From the NCBI GenBank assembly GCA_013314775.1, contig JABUFB010000013.1, positions 62,001 to 126,000 of the forward strand: 64,000 nucleotides of DNA. Reading direction: 5' to 3'. Of the stretch, positions 14,821 through 23,552 are shown one piece after another. Source of the stretch: Armatimonadota bacterium. GTDB taxonomy: Bacteria > Armatimonadota > Zipacnadia > Zipacnadales > JABUFB01. The number at the start of each line of letters is the position of its first letter. Position 1 is the stretch's first letter. Below the pieces are notes generated by a model. The model made no database searches. It saw only the letters and a list, made by a program, of their open reading frames with translations, and had not been told where the DNA came from. A program made the translations under genes and the position numbers.

Positions 14821-16887
14821 TTGGCAGAGGGGAAGAACCCGGACAACCAGGAGATCCCGGAGATCCAGGGGTTGCTCCGTAAGGGCCGCCGCAACGGCTT
14901 CGTCACCTATACCGAGATCCAGGATAGTCTGTCGGAGCTCGAGGACCTCGACACCGATGACATCGAAGAGATCTACCGTGTCTTCCTGGATGCAGGTATT
15001 CGTATCGTGGACGAAGATGAGGAGGAGGAGGACGTAGAGGAGATTGGCGAGGATGAGCTGGACGAACTTGAAGATGTACCCATTGACGACTCGGTCCGCA
15101 TGTACCTGCGGGATATCGGCCGCGTTCCCCTGCTCACCGCGCAACAGGAAGTCGCGCTGGCTCGGCGCATCCAGAAGGGTGACGGGGAGGTGTCTTTCGA
15201 CCCGGTCCGCAATGCCCTGGTTTTCACACCCAACGAGCGCCTGGAGCCGAATACAGTCTACACAGTGACGGTCAAGGGCGGCGAAAGTGGCGTCTATGAT
15301 CTTCTCGGAAGGCCGCTGGAGCAGGATTTCGTCTGGTCGTATCGTGTGGCCGGAGCCGAGGCTGCACTCCAGGTAATCTCCACGAACCCCAGCGACGGGG
15401 CGACTGATGTGGAAGCCGAGGCCCGGATCTATGTGCACCTGAACGATGCCGTTGACCCGTCCACGCTGGTTCCTGAGAACGTGCGTCTGGCGGACGACAA
15501 AGGCCGCGCCGTGTCCGGTCAGGTCATGCCGGGAGCGCGCCCGTGGTCGCTGGTGTTCGTGCCCGATGAACCCCTGGTTCATCGCAACCGGTTCACTTTG
15601 ACGATCGTCGGAGGCGCGCGAGGCTTGCGTGGCGAGCGCGGCCGAATGTTGCCTGAAGATCACGTGGTGCATTTCGAGACAGTGGCCCGGAAGGCGGCAC
15701 CACGGGCGATATCCTCCGATCCGCCCCACGGAGCTCAAGACATTCCGGCGGGCACCCGCATCAGCGCCGACATGGACCGCCGACTTGATCCAAAGACCGT
15801 GAACACCAATACGGTGTCGGTCGTGGACGCAATCGGCAACCGCGTCAACGGTATCGTGCACTATGACGACGAACTGCGCCGCATTACCTTCGTGCCGGCG
15901 GCGCCTCTCGAAGCCAACATGCGGTACACGTTCACCGTGGCATCGGGCAAGAAGGGCGTCGTCGGGGTGACTGGTTACGCTCTGCAGGAAGACTATAGCA
16001 TCGACTTCGATACATGCTCGGAGCACGCACCGCTAAAGGTCATTGCCTGCAAGCCCGCCCAGGGCGCCCGCGGCGTCTCGCACAGGCCGGCCATCGAGGC
16101 GCGGTTCAATCAGCAGATAGACCCGGGAAGCATCGACCCGAGCTCGATGAAGGTCAAGGATGAGGAAGCCGTGAAGGCTCTGGCGGAGGCCAACCTGCGG
16201 TTGGTTGTCAGCATCGCCCGGAAGTACACCGGCCGGTCCTCCATGAGCTTCCTGGACCTGATCCAGGAAGGCAATATGGGCCTGATGCGCGCGGTGGAGA
16301 AGTTCGATTACCGCAAGGGCTATAAGTTCAGCACGTACGCGACATGGTGGATTCGCCAGGCAATCACACGCGCCATTGCCGACCAGGGCAGGATCATCCG
16401 CATCCCGGTGCACATGGTGGAGACAATCAACCGCCTTGTGAAGACCTCGCGACAGCTTCTCCAGCAATTGGGGCGAGAGCCGACCCTGGAGGAAGTGGCG
16501 GCAGAGATGGACATGCCCCTGGAGCGCGTCAGCGAAATCCGGCGGATCGCTCCGGAGCCGCTGTCTCTAGAGGCGCCCGTCGGCGAAGAGGAGAACAGCC
16601 ACCTGGGCGATTTCGTGCCGGATGACGAAATCTACACCCCGGTGGACGCCGCATCTAACCTCGTCCTGCGTGAGCAGCTCGAGAAAGTGCTGGAGCAGCT
16701 GAGTGAGCGCGAGCGCGAGGTGCTCAAGCTCCGCTTTGGCCTGGAAGATGGGTATTCGCGGACCCTCGAAGAGGTTGGCCACATCTTCGAGGTTACCCGG
16801 GAACGCATCCGTCAGATCGAGGCGAAGGCGCTGAAGAAGCTGCGACACCCTGGCCGCAACCGCCGGCTGCGCGACTATATTGAGTGA
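14821..16887 (+). CDS. rpoD: Primary sigma factor RpoD with an inserted block of Big_5-type Ig-like repeats
   Basis: RNA polymerase primary sigma factor of 688 residues. Region 1.1 (about 12-62, [18 protein letters not shown]), an acidic linker, and region 1.2 (89-121, [20 protein letters not shown] then [11 protein letters not shown]) are normal. Region 2 (448-525, with [15 protein letters not shown]), region 3 (about 526-606) and region 4 (about 615-688, [20 protein letters not shown]) are also complete, so it should recognise ordinary -35/-10 promoters. Between regions 1.2 and 2 lie 326 residues (122-447) of unrelated Ig-like repeats, described separately. Region 2.1 also reads [10 protein letters not shown] where relatives have GRGLSFLDL, one residue longer. 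The TTG start has GGAG about 12 bases before it and no better in-frame alternative. Neighbour dnaG supports the housekeeping role. No second rpoD is in the window. Confidence 0.95.
15184..16161 (+). other. In-frame 978-bp insert of three Big_5 (SbsA-type Ig-like) repeat units inside rpoD
   Basis: Residues 122-447 of RpoD. Each repeat has an NPsdGA-type opening ([10 protein letters not shown] at 185, [10 protein letters not shown] at 296, [10 protein letters not shown] at 407) and a later F-x-P...L...(Y/F)-x-hT strand pair (Phe135, Phe246, Phe357). Every landmark is exactly 111 residues from the next. The block begins in the second half of one repeat (GEVSFDP, equivalent to Gly233 and Gly344) and ends in the first half of another (SMKVKD, equivalent to Asp225 and Asp336). 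Family knowledge: Big_5 domains normally belong to secreted or surface proteins. No intein or self-splicing motif is visible at either edge, and the flanking sigma sequence reads as an uninterrupted [15 protein letters not shown] once the block is removed. Confidence 0.9.
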
Positions 16888-17335: not shown

Positions 17336-17411
17336 GGGCCCGTAGCTCAGCGGTTAGAGCAGTCGGCTCATAACCGATTGGTCGCTGGTTCGAATCCGGC
17401 CGGGCCCACCA
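17336..17411 (+). tRNA. tRNA with CAT anticodon (elongator Met, or Ile2 read after lysidine modification)
   Basis: A complete 76-base cloverleaf with encoded CCA. The acceptor stem GGGCCCG/CGGGCCC is fully paired, the D stem is GCTC/GAGC, the anticodon stem is GTCGG/CCGAT with loop CTCATAA (anticodon CAT at 17369-17371), and the T arm is GCTGG-TTCGAAT-CCGGC. The paired 1-72 position (G-C) argues against initiator tRNA. Elongator Met and the k2C-modified Ile tRNA share this anticodon; the sequence alone does not settle which. Confidence 0.95.
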
Positions 17412-17539: not shown

Positions 17540-20500
17540 ATGATCCCCATTATCGCCGAGCACCTCAAGGCGCACCGGCACCAACTGCGGAAGCATGCGC
17601 TGTTCATCGGGTCCACGGTGCCCATCCCCCCCGACGACGTGCCCATCGACCGAGCAATCGAGCGCGCGGCGTTGAATTGGGCCGGCGACCGGGTGGCAGG
17701 CTACGAGGAAGACGAACGGGCACGCGAGGCTGTGCGGCTGTTCGCCGAAGGTGTGCCCGAACATGAGGTACGCTGCAAGCTGCTGGAGGAAGTGCTGGGG
17801 GCTGAAGCCAGGCCTGCGGAAGGTCACGTTCGCCTGGCGCGCCTCGTCAAGGACGGGTACTACTCGTCGATCTTTCTGTCCGAACCCGATGACATGTTGG
17901 AGCGCGCTCTGCGGGCGCAACACATGGAACCCGGCAAGGACTACCACCTCCTCGTGGCAGGACTGGACGACCCCAAGGACATCCGCATCGCCCTGGAGGA
18001 ATCGACCCGCATCTCCATCGTCAAGTGCGGGGGCGATCTCCATCAGCGGTTCCTGCCCGTCTCCACCGAGGAAATCACTGAGGTTGCGAGAAGCCTGGAG
18101 ACGATCCTGGGTGACGTTTTCAAGCTCTTCAGCGTCTTCGTCGCCATGTCGGACCGGGACACGCCTTTCCTTGAGCGTATCCCCCGGGAGGGCGGTAAGG
18201 TTTTCTGGATCAACCGCATGATCCCCATGGCCGATGCCGAGCTCTACGATGAGCTGCGCATCGAGAACCCCGCAAGCGCCGACTACCACCGCTACCAGCC
18301 CCATGTCATGTCGCTGCTGGAAGCCCGCCACTCGTCCCGGCATCTCCTTTGCCGCGAGCCCGGGTCCTTCAATGACTTCTTCGCCAAGCTCCACGGGCGC
18401 CTTGTCCGGCACCGCCGGCGGGAGCGTGGTGGACGCCGGGACATGACTGTCCTGCGTGGGGGCCCTTTCCGCTTCCTGGACCATTTCAACGCCGAGGACG
18501 AAGACTTCTACTTCGGACGCGAGGCCGACGTCAGTGCTGTGGTGGAGAAGATCCGCAGCAAGCCCCTGACGGTACTGTTCGGCACCAGTGGCGTCGGAAA
18601 GACCTCGCTGTTGCGCGCCGGCGTGTTCAACGCCCTGCGAAAGGAGACGGAGGAAGCGGACGCGGAGGAATCGCGCCCGTGGCTGGTCGTCTATGCCCGG
18701 GTTGGTGACGACCCTCGCGTCAGCATCCAGCAGGCCATCATCGCGGCCGTGGAGGAGGCAGGGTTCGACACCCGACAGCTGGCTGCCGCCGAGAACTGCT
18801 CGGCTCTCATATCAAAGGTGGTGGAGCGGACCGGGCGTAGGGTTGTGATCCTTCTCGACCAGTTTGCGGAGTACTTTGTCAAGTTGGGCGCCCGGGTTCG
18901 CCGGCGATCCGTCATCGCGCTGAAGGAAGCCCTGGAACACTGTTCCGAAGACTTCCGCCTGCTCATCGCCATCCGCGAGGATTACCTCGGGGAGCTGTTC
19001 GAGCTTGAGAAAGACTTCCCCGAGATTATGCACAACATGCACCGCCTGCGCCGTCTCACGCGCGAGCAGGCGGAGGATGCGATCATCAAGCCCGCGCAGA
19101 ACTTTGAGATGCAGGTGGAACGCTCCCTGGTCCACCGTATCGTCAATGACCTGTACCGCGACGGTGTTGAGCCGTACCAGTTGCAGATCGTCCTGCACAG
19201 CCTGTACGAAAGCCTCTCCCCGGGTGGCCGCGTGATCACGGAGCGCACTTACGAGCGGGTGGGCGGTGCGCGCGAGGTGCTGGAACAGTATCTGCAGAGG
19301 GCGCTGGCCAAGCTGCCCAGCAACGAAAAGCGCACCGCGACCAAAGTGCTCGTGTTTCTGGCATCCGGGTCTGAACTCAAGGCATCGCAGACGGTTGACC
19401 GGATCGTCGACGAGGTGAACGTTGACCGGGAGCTGGTTGAGCGCGCCCTGGCGCACCTCGTGGACCTCGGCCTTCTGCGACCGGTGGGGCGCGGACGCGA
19501 GCGGGAATATGAGCTCGTGCACGAGATCCTCGCGGACCGCATCGAAAAGGATCTGGCCGGGGCACAAGTGCTCCTGCGCGACATTCAGGACCTGCTCACC
19601 CGGGAGCTCAATAGCTACGAGCAGTTCGGGTTGCTCACAGGGCCCGAGGAGTTGCGGCTAATCGGCACCGTGCGCGATGATCTGGTGATCGGCCCCGACG
19701 AGCTTCGGCTCATCATCCGCAGTGCACTCACACGCGAGGTGGACGCTGACTACTGGTTCAAACGTCTCTGGGAACTGCGCGACGGCAAGAGCGAGTTCAT
19801 CGCGCGGCTCATGCGTGATGAAGAGCCCAAGGTGCGGCGCTACGTGTACCAGCATCTGTCGGATCATCTCGAGGCCAGGCTGATCCGCCACCTGGTACAC
19901 GGGCTGGACGACGAACTGCCGGAAGTGCGCGAACTCGCCACCACCTACCTGCGCCAACTAGACCGCCACCTGCTGTCCATGCTCGCGAACGCCGACTACC
20001 GGGTGCGAGCACTGGCCGCCCGCGCCGCGGCGGCAATTGGGGATCGGCGCTTCGTGAAGCCATTGACTGAGGCCTTCATGGACGATGCCCCAGAGTTGCG
20101 CGATGAGATCACATCGGCGTTGCTGGAGATCGACGACCCACGCACTGTGGACAGCCTGCTGAAGACAGCGGTCTCCGGGCAAGGCGCGTCCTGGTCTGTC
20201 GCCTTTGCGCTGGGACGGTTGTCCGTGGGCGAGGATGAACTGGCCGAACTGCGCAAAGCATGGTCAACGCACCGCAAGCCTCACCTGCTGTACGCTCTCA
20301 CCGTCGCGCTTATCCAGCGTCGGCATTTCCAGGAGGCCGAGGAGGCCCTGGAGCAGGCTGCGGCGCTGCATCTTGAAGACCGTGGAGCGACAGCCTTCGC
20401 CGAGGTCCGCGCCAGCCTGGAGGAAGAGCGCGCCAAGGCCAGCGCAGGTGAGGACGTCTGGCCCATGTTCGGGCGCAATGCCGCGCACCGGGCGATGACC

Positions 20501-21502
20501 CCCCAGCAGGTCTCTCCCCCTCTCGAAGTGGCCTGGCAATTCCAGACCGAAGACCAAGTCGTTGCCTCACCCGTGGTTCGCGATCACCTGGCTTACGTGG
20601 GGTCGCGCGACAAGAAGCTCTACGCCATCGACACCGGCAAGGGTTCGGCGCGCTGGAGCTTCCTCGCCGGCGACCGCCTCGAGGGAGCTGCCGCAGTCAC
20701 TGAGGACCTCGTCTGCGTGGGAGCCCTCAGCGGCTCGGTCTACGGCGTGGACGTGACGTCCGGCCAGCTCCGGTGGAAGGCATCGCTCGGCTCATCCATC
20801 CGCGCCAGTTGCGCCGTCGAAGGTGACAGCCTGTTCATCGGGACGCGCTCGGGCAAACTGTTCCGCCTGGATCTTGAGCATGGCAACGTTGCCTGGGAGC
20901 AGCAACTCCCCGGGGAAATATCGGCCAGTACGGCGGTCTCAGACGGAATCGCGGTGGTCGGCTGTTGGGACGGCGCCCTGCACGCCCACGACGCCGCAAG
21001 CGGAGCGCCTTTGTGGGTGCATCGGACCCAGGGCCCGATCTCGGCAGCCCCTTCTATCGCTGACGGCGTGGCCTACTGCGGGTCCGACGACAACTCCCTG
21101 TATGCGCTGAACCTGGCTGACGGCAACCTGCTGTGGAAACGTGCGCTTCCCGGCCACATCCGCTCCGCCGCCGCGGTCGGCAACGAACTGGTAATCTTCG
21201 GATGCGTGGACGGTCGCTGCTACGCGCTGTCCCGGGAGACCGGCGAAATTGTCTGGGCCACGCCCACGGAAGAGGAAATCCTCGCATCCCCGGCGATTTC
21301 CGGCGACGTCGTGTACATCGGTTCCCGCGACGGCGCCTTGTACGCGCTGGACCGGCCGTCAGGTGAGGTGCTCTGGCGGCACAAGACATCCTACGGCATC
21401 TACTCCTCGCCGGCGGTTGCCGAACAGACTGTGTTCATCGGCCTGGGATACTACGGCATTGCCGCCCTGCGGCCTGAGACACGCACCGGGAGGCCCCACT
21501 GA
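17540..21502 (+). CDS. SIR2-like / STAND NTPase / HEAT / PQQ beta-propeller protein
   Basis: A 1320-residue multidomain signalling protein. Residues 1-290 look like a SIR2-type Rossmann domain: HALFIGSTVP stands where GAGxS is expected, IFLSEPDDMLERAL where TTNYDDLLE is expected, and VFVAMSDRDTPFLE plus GKVFWINRMIP at the end. FYFGRE (323-328) opens an nSTAND1-like NTPase with Walker A GTSGVGKTS (348-356) and Walker B VVILLDQFAEYF (435-446). A winged-helix part (about 590-670), HEAT-like repeats (about 750-900) and a PQQ-type propeller (about 975-1310, with VYIGSRDGALYALDRPSGEV) follow. STAND proteins oligomerise on ligand binding; here HEAT and propeller would sense and the N-terminal domain would respond. 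The shine-dalgarno is weak (GGTGA). The stop overlaps the next start by one base. SIR2 assignment is less certain than the rest. Confidence 0.82.
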   Translation: MIPIIAEHLKAHRHQLRKHALFIGSTVPIPPDDVPIDRAIERAALNWAGDRVAGYEEDERAREAVRLFAEGVPEHEVRCKLLEEVLGAEARPAEGHVRLARLVKDGYYSSIFLSEPDDMLERALRAQHMEPGKDYHLLVAGLDDPKDIRIALEESTRISIVKCGGDLHQRFLPVSTEEITEVARSLETILGDVFKLFSVFVAMSDRDTPFLERIPREGGKVFWINRMIPMADAELYDELRIENPASADYHRYQPHVMSLLEARHSSRHLLCREPGSFNDFFAKLHGRLVRHRRRERGGRRDMTVLRGGPFRFLDHFNAEDEDFYFGREADVSAVVEKIRSKPLTVLFGTSGVGKTSLLRAGVFNALRKETEEADAEESRPWLVVYARVGDDPRVSIQQAIIAAVEEAGFDTRQLAAAENCSALISKVVERTGRRVVILLDQFAEYFVKLGARVRRRSVIALKEALEHCSEDFRLLIAIREDYLGELFELEKDFPEIMHNMHRLRRLTREQAEDAIIKPAQNFEMQVERSLVHRIVNDLYRDGVEPYQLQIVLHSLYESLSPGGRVITERTYERVGGAREVLEQYLQRALAKLPSNEKRTATKVLVFLASGSELKASQTVDRIVDEVNVDRELVERALAHLVDLGLLRPVGRGREREYELVHEILADRIEKDLAGAQVLLRDIQDLLTRELNSYEQFGLLTGPEELRLIGTVRDDLVIGPDELRLIIRSALTREVDADYWFKRLWELRDGKSEFIARLMRDEEPKVRRYVYQHLSDHLEARLIRHLVHGLDDELPEVRELATTYLRQLDRHLLSMLANADYRVRALAARAAAAIGDRRFVKPLTEAFMDDAPELRDEITSALLEIDDPRTVDSLLKTAVSGQGASWSVAFALGRLSVGEDELAELRKAWSTHRKPHLLYALTVALIQRRHFQEAEEALEQAAALHLEDRGATAFAEVRASLEEERAKASAGEDVWPMFGRNAAHRAMTPQQVSPPLEVAWQFQTEDQVVASPVVRDHLAYVGSRDKKLYAIDTGKGSARWSFLAGDRLEGAAAVTEDLVCVGALSGSVYGVDVTSGQLRWKASLGSSIRASCAVEGDSLFIGTRSGKLFRLDLEHGNVAWEQQLPGEISASTAVSDGIAVVGCWDGALHAHDAASGAPLWVHRTQGPISAAPSIADGVAYCGSDDNSLYALNLADGNLLWKRALPGHIRSAAAVGNELVIFGCVDGRCYALSRETGEIVWATPTEEEILASPAISGDVVYIGSRDGALYALDRPSGEVLWRHKTSYGIYSSPAVAEQTVFIGLGYYGIAALRPETRTGRPH

Positions 21503-22377
21503 TGCGCCGCCGCGTCCCGGCGATCATCGCTCTTGCGGTCCTTGGAGCCCTGATTGCCGGCCTTTATTTCGCTGCCGGGTCCTGGAGCGGGCTGGATCGC
21601 CTTCGCACCGACTACCTTGGGCACTACTACCTGAACAGAGCCTTCACCATAGCCAACAGCGAGCCGCTGGACCGCCGGGCGGCACTCGAGTACCTCAGAC
21701 GATCGCGCGAACTGGCTCCCAACAGCCCCATGCTTCCGGCGGCCGCACCGCAGATCCTGATGTCCATCGGGCAGTGGCAACTAGCCGCGCAAGAACTCGC
21801 CCGACAACCTGCCGCGGACCCGTACATGCTGGGCACATGCCTGATCAAGATCGGCCAGACAGCCAAAGGCGCCGCCCTGCTGAAAGCCGCCCTGCAGACC
21901 GCTGAAGATCTCCGCCGGCGGCGCCTCATCAGTGAAGAGCAGTTCGCTATGCAACTGAACAATGTGGGCTATGTCCTGGCGGATGCAGGCGTGGATCTGC
22001 CGGAGGCCCGGGCAATGCTGGAAATTGCCGCCACAACTCTACCCCTGGACCCCAATGTCATTGACAGCCTGGGCTGGGTCCACTATCGTCTTGGGAATTT
22101 CCGCGAGGCCGTGTTCTACCTGGAGCGTGCGATGCGCCAGCATTCAGGCATGGGGCGCGCGGAAGTGTACTATCATCTGGGAGCTGCTTACGCCCGGACA
22201 GGCCGGATGGCCCAGGCAAACCGGTTTCTCAGAAGCGCCCTCCGGCTGGACCCCGGGCATCCCGAGGCCCGAGCCGAGATGGAGCGTCTCCGCTGGCTCT
22301 TACCACCAGCAAATACCGCCGGCGCCACGCCGCGCCGAAACGATCCCGGGAGGTCCAAATGGAGCAATCTCACATGA
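21502..22377 (+). CDS. Membrane-anchored TPR protein
   Basis: A 291-residue protein with one N-terminal transmembrane anchor (AIIALAVLGALIAGLYFAAG), followed by TPR-like helical pairs. The clearest are around VIDSLGWVHYRLGNFREAVF and YYHLGAAYARTGRMAQANRF. The orientation of the anchor (Arg-rich start) puts the TPR part outside the cytoplasm. Its ATG overlaps the stop of the STAND gene (TGATG), and it overlaps the following aminotransferase gene, so all three are translationally coupled. TPR proteins are scaffolds; by position it may partner the STAND protein, but that would require a cytoplasmic contact the topology does not obviously allow. Confidence 0.78.
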   Translation: MRRRVPAIIALAVLGALIAGLYFAAGSWSGLDRLRTDYLGHYYLNRAFTIANSEPLDRRAALEYLRRSRELAPNSPMLPAAAPQILMSIGQWQLAAQELARQPAADPYMLGTCLIKIGQTAKGAALLKAALQTAEDLRRRRLISEEQFAMQLNNVGYVLADAGVDLPEARAMLEIAATTLPLDPNVIDSLGWVHYRLGNFREAVFYLERAMRQHSGMGRAEVYYHLGAAYARTGRMAQANRFLRSALRLDPGHPEARAEMERLRWLLPPANTAGATPRRNDPGRSKWSNLT

Positions 22378-23552
22378 TCTCGCAGTTCGCCAGGTCCGTC
22401 GAGGCATCACCCACCATGGCCATGAACGCCCTGGCCAAGGAGATCGCGGCCGAGGGCAAAGATGTGCTGTCCTTCGCCGTCGGGGAGCCGGACTTCCCCA
22501 CACCGGCGCACATCTGCGAGGCAGCCAAGCGGGCTATCGACGCCGGGGACACCAAGTACACCCTGGCCTCCGGCACGGTTGCTCTGCGCAAGGCCATCTG
22601 CGACGCCACTGAGCGCGACCTGGGGCTGTCCTATTCGCCCGCTCAGGTGGTAGTGGGCAACGGCGGCAAACACGCACTGATGAACGTCTGGCGCACCTTG
22701 CTGGACCCGGGAGACGAGGTCATCATATTCGCTCCCTACTGGGTCAGCTATGTGCCCCAAGTGGAGATGGCCGGGGGCACTCCAGTGGTCATTGAAACCT
22801 ACGGCGACGATGACTTCCAGCCTGATCTCGACCGAGTCCGGGCCGCGGTCACACCCCGCACCAAAGCCATTCTCGTCAACAGCCCTTCAAACCCCTCTGG
22901 CGGCGTGCTGACACGTGAGAGCATGGAAGGCATTGCCGAGGTGGCCTGCGCAAATGACCTGATCGTCATCTCCGACGAGATCTACAAGCACATCCTCTTC
23001 GACGGACGCAGCCACGTGAGCCCGGCCCAGCTCGATGGGATGAAGGACCGCACGATCCTCGTTGACGGTGTAGCGAAGACCTACGCCATGACCGGTTGGC
23101 GCATTGGATGGCTCATCGCGCCCGAGCAGTTCGCGAAGAAGGCCGGCGACATCCAGAGCCAGGAGACCTCCAATCCCTGCTCCATATCGCAGGCTGCCAC
23201 AGTGGAAGCGCTCAACGGTCCGCAGGATTCCGTAGCCGTCATGCGCGCGGCTTTCGAGGAGCGGCGTGACTACATCGTCCCCGCCCTCAACGCAATCCCG
23301 GGAATCAAGTGCCCCAATCCCGGTGGTGCGTTCTACGTCTTCCCCGAGATCACCGGCCTCTTTGGACGCACTGTGAAGGGCGAGGTCATCAACAACTCCA
23401 ACGACTTCTGCATGGCCCTCTTGCGCCACGGCCTGGTCAGCACGGTGCCGGGCAGCGCGTCGGGTCTCGAAGGGTACTTCCGCATCAGTTTCGCCTGCAG
23501 CATGGAGCAGATCAAGGAAGGCATCGAGCGCATCGGCGATCTGCTTGCATGA
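22359..23552 (+). CDS. Pyridoxal-phosphate aspartate aminotransferase (class I, Ib-type)
   Basis: A 397-residue fold-type I aminotransferase. PLP ligands are clear: Lys240 (VAKTYAMTGWRIG) forms the Schiff base, Asn178 sits in NSPSNPSGG, Asp206 in SDEIYKHI, and the substrate-carboxylate Arg is in GYFRISFA near the end. Sequence style (FAVGEPDFPTPAHI, KYTLASGT) is that of the Ib aspartate/prephenate aminotransferases. The ATG at 22359 has GGAGG five bases before it and overlaps the TPR gene by 19 bases; an ATG at 22374 is a possible alternative. Likely role: aspartate or glutamate-prephenate transamination in amino-acid synthesis. A hairpin terminator follows. Confidence 0.93.
   Translation: MEQSHMISQFARSVEASPTMAMNALAKEIAAEGKDVLSFAVGEPDFPTPAHICEAAKRAIDAGDTKYTLASGTVALRKAICDATERDLGLSYSPAQVVVGNGGKHALMNVWRTLLDPGDEVIIFAPYWVSYVPQVEMAGGTPVVIETYGDDDFQPDLDRVRAAVTPRTKAILVNSPSNPSGGVLTRESMEGIAEVACANDLIVISDEIYKHILFDGRSHVSPAQLDGMKDRTILVDGVAKTYAMTGWRIGWLIAPEQFAKKAGDIQSQETSNPCSISQAATVEALNGPQDSVAVMRAAFEERRDYIVPALNAIPGIKCPNPGGAFYVFPEITGLFGRTVKGEVINNSNDFCMALLRHGLVSTVPGSASGLEGYFRISFACSMEQIKEGIERIGDLLA

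Follow-up and report, generated by a model that had tools for sequence, protein, structure and literature searches.

A probable signalling STAND protein with a putatively non-catalytic SIR2-fold domain, conserved across Ca. Zipacnadia (Armatimonadota)

Introduction

Proteins joining a SIR2 domain to a STAND NTPase are known as antiphage NADases of patchy distribution, and finding this combination beside a tRNA gene in an Armatimonadota genome raises the question of whether the locus is an acquired antiviral system or serves the cell itself. The original prediction, made from a 64,000-nucleotide stretch of DNA (the window), suggested a two-gene conflict or signalling system in which a SIR2 effector could deplete NAD. 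The comparative analyses presented here point to a dead version of such a protein that is a single-copy core gene throughout its class, Ca. Zipacnadia, which was described from anoxic sediments (PMC10290634, in the sections consulted). No description of this STAND protein was found in the consulted portions of the literature on Armatimonadota and STAND proteins.

Locus and gene layout

The genes of the locus, in window coordinates, are the following:

17336..17411, + strand: tRNA-Met (CAT), found by ARAGORN, directly upstream of the STAND gene
17540..21502, + strand: STAND protein, 1320 aa, ATG start, consisting of pseudo-SIR2, nSTAND1, HEAT-like and 8-bladed propeller parts
21502..22377, + strand: TPR protein gene, 291 aa, ATG start, N-terminal membrane anchor
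22359..23552, + strand: presumed aminotransferase, the third gene, conserved in families f1-f8 (ORF list and gene-order comparison)

Both open reading frames of the predicted gene pair were present, with the last base of the STAND stop codon (TGA, 21500-21502) shared with the TPR ATG, and the predicted tRNA neighbour was likewise recovered. Orthologues of the STAND protein in 46 of 46 class genomes ruled out a chance ORF. The start of the third gene overlaps the end of the TPR gene by 19 nt; its product, which was named from the original prediction and the appearance of the sequence and not by Pfam, is presumably an aminotransferase. Upstream of the tRNA-Met and STAND genes, the window carries primase and sigma-70 genes.

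NTPase, helical repeats and propeller

The features assigned within the STAND protein are listed below:

17540..18424, + strand: SIR2-fold domain with catalytic residues lost (aa 1-295; AlphaFold, Foldseek, VIA)
17882..17884, + strand: E115 codon, at the catalytic Asn position (TTN[YF]D motif), from alignment with intact SIR2_2 proteins
18029..18031, + strand: G164 codon, at the catalytic His position (HG motif), from the same alignment with intact SIR2_2 proteins
18464..19534, + strand: nSTAND1 NTPase (aa 309-665; Pfam PF20703, 1.4e-53)
18581..18607, + strand: Walker A, GTSGVGKTS (aa 348-356; G348, G353, K354 and S356 invariant, 34/34)
18845..18877, + strand: Walker B region with D440 (aa 436-446; D440 in 34/34, E444 in 32/34)
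19820..20464, + strand: HEAT-like helical repeats (aa ~761-975; Pfam HEAT_2 1.9e-10, AlphaFold helices)
20519..21475, + strand: 8-bladed BamB/PQQ-type beta-propeller (aa ~994-1312; PQQ_2 2.9e-48, Beta-prop_ACSF4 7.5e-61)

The prediction of an intact nSTAND1 NTPase was confirmed, as the PF20703 match scored 183.4 bits against a curated cut-off of 27.1, the Walker A motif was present, and the P-loop NTPase, including its P-loop residues and D440, was intact in all 34 sequences compared. The Pfam matches for nSTAND1, HEAT_2, PQQ_2 and Beta-prop_ACSF4 were all above cut-off, and the HEAT-like repeats and PQQ-type propeller read from the sequence agreed between Pfam (HEAT_2, PQQ_2) and the AlphaFold model. 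The model of aa 303-1320 (pLDDT 89) consisted of helical repeats and an eight-bladed propeller, with the relative placement of its domains unsure at a pTM of 0.56. The propeller was matched to Cake8 (6tjg, Z 47.6) and BamB (4xga, Z 39.7), and no signal sequence was found in the STAND protein.

In Foldseek searches the chassis (aa 303-1320) aligned with Apaf-1 over 1131-1135 columns (apoptosome 3j2t, E 2.8e-22 over 1131 columns; 3sfz, 8.7e-20), with the NTPase, helical and propeller parts in the same order along the chain. The TM-scores were near 0.2, so that the order of parts is common to both but their relative placement is not, and the likeness, as judged from these models, is one of layout and not of descent. 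Unlike Apaf-1, the Zipacnadia protein has one BamB/PQQ-type propeller, and a pseudo-SIR2 domain takes the place of the CARD. In the SAMD9 family, AlbA_2 and OB-fold domains flank a SIR2-like, STAND and TPR core (PMC5445408, in the sections consulted), whereas the Zipacnadia protein has HEAT repeats and a propeller; its SIR2 domain starts at residue 1, its C-terminus is the propeller, and no AlbA_2 or OB-fold flank was matched among the best 25 of 33 Pfam rows.

Fold and active site of the N-terminal domain

Sequence searches provided little information about the N-terminal domain. On its own, the domain of the 1320-aa protein matched no Pfam family; SIR2_2 was matched weakly in 6 of 36 orthologues (best 2.9e-7), PADLOC reported a weak similarity of the STAND protein to SPARSA SIR2 proteins (3.2e-8), and a SIR2-domain profile gave nothing significant against PDB sequences, where the best match was ThsA (8wc0, E 0.45). 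The identity of the domain was resolved only by fold search, and not by sequence search against the PDB. AlphaFold, with 36 orthologues as input, modelled it at pLDDT 90, and the top structures among the Foldseek and VIA matches listed were all SIR2 domains (SPARSA, ThsA, KomC, DSR2, SIR2-HerA and Avs5). The best VIA match was SPARSA 8y80_E, with Z 20.5 over 255 aligned residues, and Avs5 9jap scored Z 14.2. With a confident model and SIR2 domains topping both lists, the N-terminal domain belongs, by its predicted fold, to the SIR2 superfamily. The Rossmann/SIR2-like N-terminus of the original prediction was thus upheld, and its alternative of a non-SIR2 family was not borne out.

The catalytic positions were placed by alignment with SIR2_2 proteins of related genomes in which TTN[YF]D and HG are intact. 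Among the 36 orthologues, the Asn position was occupied by E (16), D (10), G (3), S (3), C (2), A (1) or T (1) and never by Asn, and the His position by G (17), A (12), L (4), C (2) or P (1) and never by His or Asn. The loss of both catalytic residues in 36/36 aligned orthologues makes hydrolysis of NAD by this domain, as occurs in Avs5, ThsA and DSR2, very unlikely on the alignment. In Avs5, according to the consulted sections of PMC12931631, N110A abolishes immunity, the second site needs either Asn or His, and homologues with NG replacing HG remain active, while none without the Asn is described there. Activity can survive unusual motifs in SIR2 domains, and this is a caveat to reading the domain as a dead enzyme.

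The domain is not decaying, as judged from its dN/dS of 0.058 and from residues in it that are family-specific and invariant (W223, P229, P244, H250, R263, R272 and G275).

Distribution, inheritance and selection

The STAND protein was single-copy in all 46 Ca. Zipacnadia genomes of the set, in two of which a contig break splits the gene, and one named orthologue came from a Ca. Zipacnadia MAG. Within the genome set analysed, no genome of the phylum outside this class had the complete architecture. In a tree of the chassis, built by a quick method and containing some long branches, each of the families f1, f4, f6 and f9 formed a single branch, f9 and f10 were deepest, and f3 was split by weakly supported branches; by this tree, the chassis follows taxonomy. 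Compared with a congeneric genome, dN/dS was 0.060 for the whole STAND protein, 0.058 for the SIR2 domain, 0.048 for the propeller, 0.124 for the HEAT region and 0.123 for TPR. At a dN/dS of ~0.06 the STAND protein is, by this measure, under strong purifying selection, and these sequence comparisons show no sign of mobility or of an arms race for its gene. No relatives of the protein were found in the viral contigs searched, and the plasmid matches listed covered the STAND (nSTAND1) domain only, partially and at <30% identity; on these results a phage or plasmid origin was rejected.

The gene order tRNA-Met, STAND, TPR and aminotransferase was kept in f1-f8 wherever the contig allows, and DnaG and RpoD lie upstream of the STAND gene in many of these loci. 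The tRNA-Met was found just upstream of the STAND gene in 29 of the 30 f1-f8 loci examined (one f8 locus is without it), which indicates old synteny; the tRNA as an integration site was rejected. Adjacency to a tRNA had been taken as a sign of an acquired system, a reading that does not survive the fixed f1-f8 order and the presence of the gene in every class genome. The survey of neighbourhoods found a core gene beside the same aminotransferase in f1-f8, an outcome that the original prediction had itself named as refuting it, and this speaks against an acquired conflict gene. Defence genes are typically patchy and mobile in their distribution, which was not seen here (46/46 carriage, fixed f1-f8 order, taxonomy-following tree), and no Avs model was among the 15 matches that PADLOC gave at E values up to 1.

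The TPR partner and other neighbours

The TPR protein was assigned by Pfam (TPR_2, 3.1e-16, above cut-off), and a 4-nt overlap between the STAND stop and the TPR start is frequent among orthologues. A pattern search found a lipobox in 24 of 36 TPR orthologues (about two thirds, with at least one, in L074, doubtful), the others having a simple membrane anchor. Judged from their sequences, the STAND protein and the exported TPR domain are probably separated by the membrane. Next to the STAND gene of f9 and f10, the TPR gene is absent and two mreC genes are found instead; this duplicated mreC pair lies directly downstream of the STAND gene (L063:12612-13487, L064:5010-6775). The predicted two-gene system therefore holds as far as the coupled, overlapping TPR gene is concerned but not as an obligate pair, which was rejected on the TPR-less f9 and f10 loci. 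Since TPR and MreC neighbours are both envelope proteins, the neighbouring genes give a hint that the STAND protein may act toward the envelope.

A sister form in other families of the phylum

Proteins from families f24 and f41 (L079-L081) are built on the same nSTAND1-HEAT-propeller chassis (31-34% identity across about 1000 residues); they differ in having an HD-CE-like N-terminus and, in place of the downstream TPR gene, an upstream gene for a cold-shock-domain protein. The HD-CE-like N-terminus was matched in L079 (PF24391, 4.3e-9) and fell below cut-off in L080 and L081.

In f24 and f41, the gene that immediately precedes HD-CE/STAND encodes a protein of ~865 aa (L081:5227-7821, L080:5884-8475, and in L073 and L079), which has an N-terminal cold-shock domain (in L081) and, apart from it, no match in Pfam. 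The phylum also contains a STAND protein closer to the usual conflict type, at L083:401-3451; its ~1000 residues join what appear by eye to be a ParA/MinD-like N-terminus, a TIR-like region and nSTAND1.

Proposed function and alternatives

Carriage by the whole class at a largely fixed place makes the protein look like a signalling switch of the housekeeping type, and not like an acquired antiviral destroyer of NAD. Altogether, we consider it reasonably probable that the protein is a STAND signalling switch inherited vertically, in single copy, within Ca. Zipacnadia, with a non-catalytic sirtuin as its assembly or docking output. Signalling had been one of the two readings offered for the STAND-TPR locus, and it is the one upheld here. 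The propeller and helical repeats would act as sensors of an endogenous ligand or partner, keeping the ATPase off; ligand binding and ATP exchange would then lead to oligomerisation, upon which the pseudo-sirtuin could provide a non-catalytic assembly or docking (protein-binding) output without destroying NAD. For NADase folds that serve as scaffolds there is a precedent in inactive TIR domains (PMC12700824, in the sections consulted). The signal might concern the cell envelope or growth, because the gene coupled to STAND encodes an exported TPR protein in most families, while mreC genes take that place in the deepest; this weak link is drawn from the neighbouring genes of two lineages, and the probable separation of the STAND protein from the exported TPR domain by the membrane counts against it. 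In this proposal an immune-type architecture would have been co-opted for the cell's own signalling, as with inactive TIR scaffolds in animals, and a defence system should not be read from domain names alone, such as SIR2 and STAND next to a tRNA gene. A bolder version, which we offer only tentatively, is that of an apoptosome-shaped housekeeping hub on which the class depends, controlling envelope growth or cell fate through a non-catalytic sirtuin adaptor, with an HD-CE-like N-terminal output in the sister lineage.

An unlikely alternative is a domesticated antiviral STAND sensor, fixed in the class, that detects phage proteins and recruits another effector, for killing or signalling, through its dead SIR2 domain. 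Its closest solved N-terminal folds are antiphage SIR2 domains, and the sister lineage swaps the N-terminal module for an HD-CE-like domain, as in conflict STAND proteins; effectors are interchangeable around STAND NTPases and such module swapping is usual in the superfamily (PMC8195603, in the sections consulted). However, carriage by every genome of the class in a fixed f1-f8 place, a propeller that is not diversifying (dN/dS 0.048) and the lack of a PADLOC Avs match all argue against it.

The family-specific invariant residues and low dN/dS of the SIR2-derived domain could also be explained by an enzyme with a new chemistry or substrate, working through the newly invariant K162, W223, H250, R263 and R272. 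We regard this as quite improbable, since no SIR2 enzyme is known to us to function when the Asn and the His/Asn pair are both missing, and the invariant residues may simply form an interface.

That the protein is an active NAD-depleting defence protein of the Avs5/DSR2 type, as first predicted, can be given hardly any credence, since a shared domain logic (SIR2, STAND, sensor) and the weak PADLOC similarity to SPARSA SIR2 proteins are set against a core gene that is not mobile and against catalytic Asn and His positions that are lost in every aligned orthologue, whereas Avs5 loses immunity with N110A (PMC12931631).

Avs5 (AVAST type 5; 9jap, 9nc9) shares the SIR2-fold N-terminus, STAND NTPase and C-terminal sensor, but in the Zipacnadia protein the catalytic Asn and the HG/NG motif are lost, the sensor consists of HEAT repeats and an 8-bladed propeller, and the gene is a vertically inherited core gene. 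SPARSA SIR2-APAZ (8y80) provides the closest solved SIR2 domain, whereas the Zipacnadia protein is without an Argonaute and without the active site.

An Ig-like insert in the neighbouring RpoD

The genome has a single strong RpoD, encoded at 14821-16887 of the window, and it contains a Big_5 (Ig-like) insert of about 320 aa at about 15181-16149. The insert sits between RpoD regions 1.2 and 2, the place taken by the non-conserved region in E. coli sigma-70. The insert was aligned in about 42 of the 46 class genomes, including the deepest families (L120, L121), the remainder being fragmentary or unmatched; being class-wide, it cannot be explained by a chimeric assembly, which was rejected. Its dN/dS of 0.072 indicates purifying selection, and it was absent from the other Armatimonadota RpoD proteins examined. 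No Big_5-bearing RpoD was described in the consulted portions of the literature on sigma inserts, and Ig-like domains inside a primary sigma factor are possibly more surprising than the STAND protein. In families f18, f37 and f38 (L116-L119), which belong to other classes, RpoD is likewise interrupted there by a long insert, but one that looks helical and differs in kind from the Big_5 insert.
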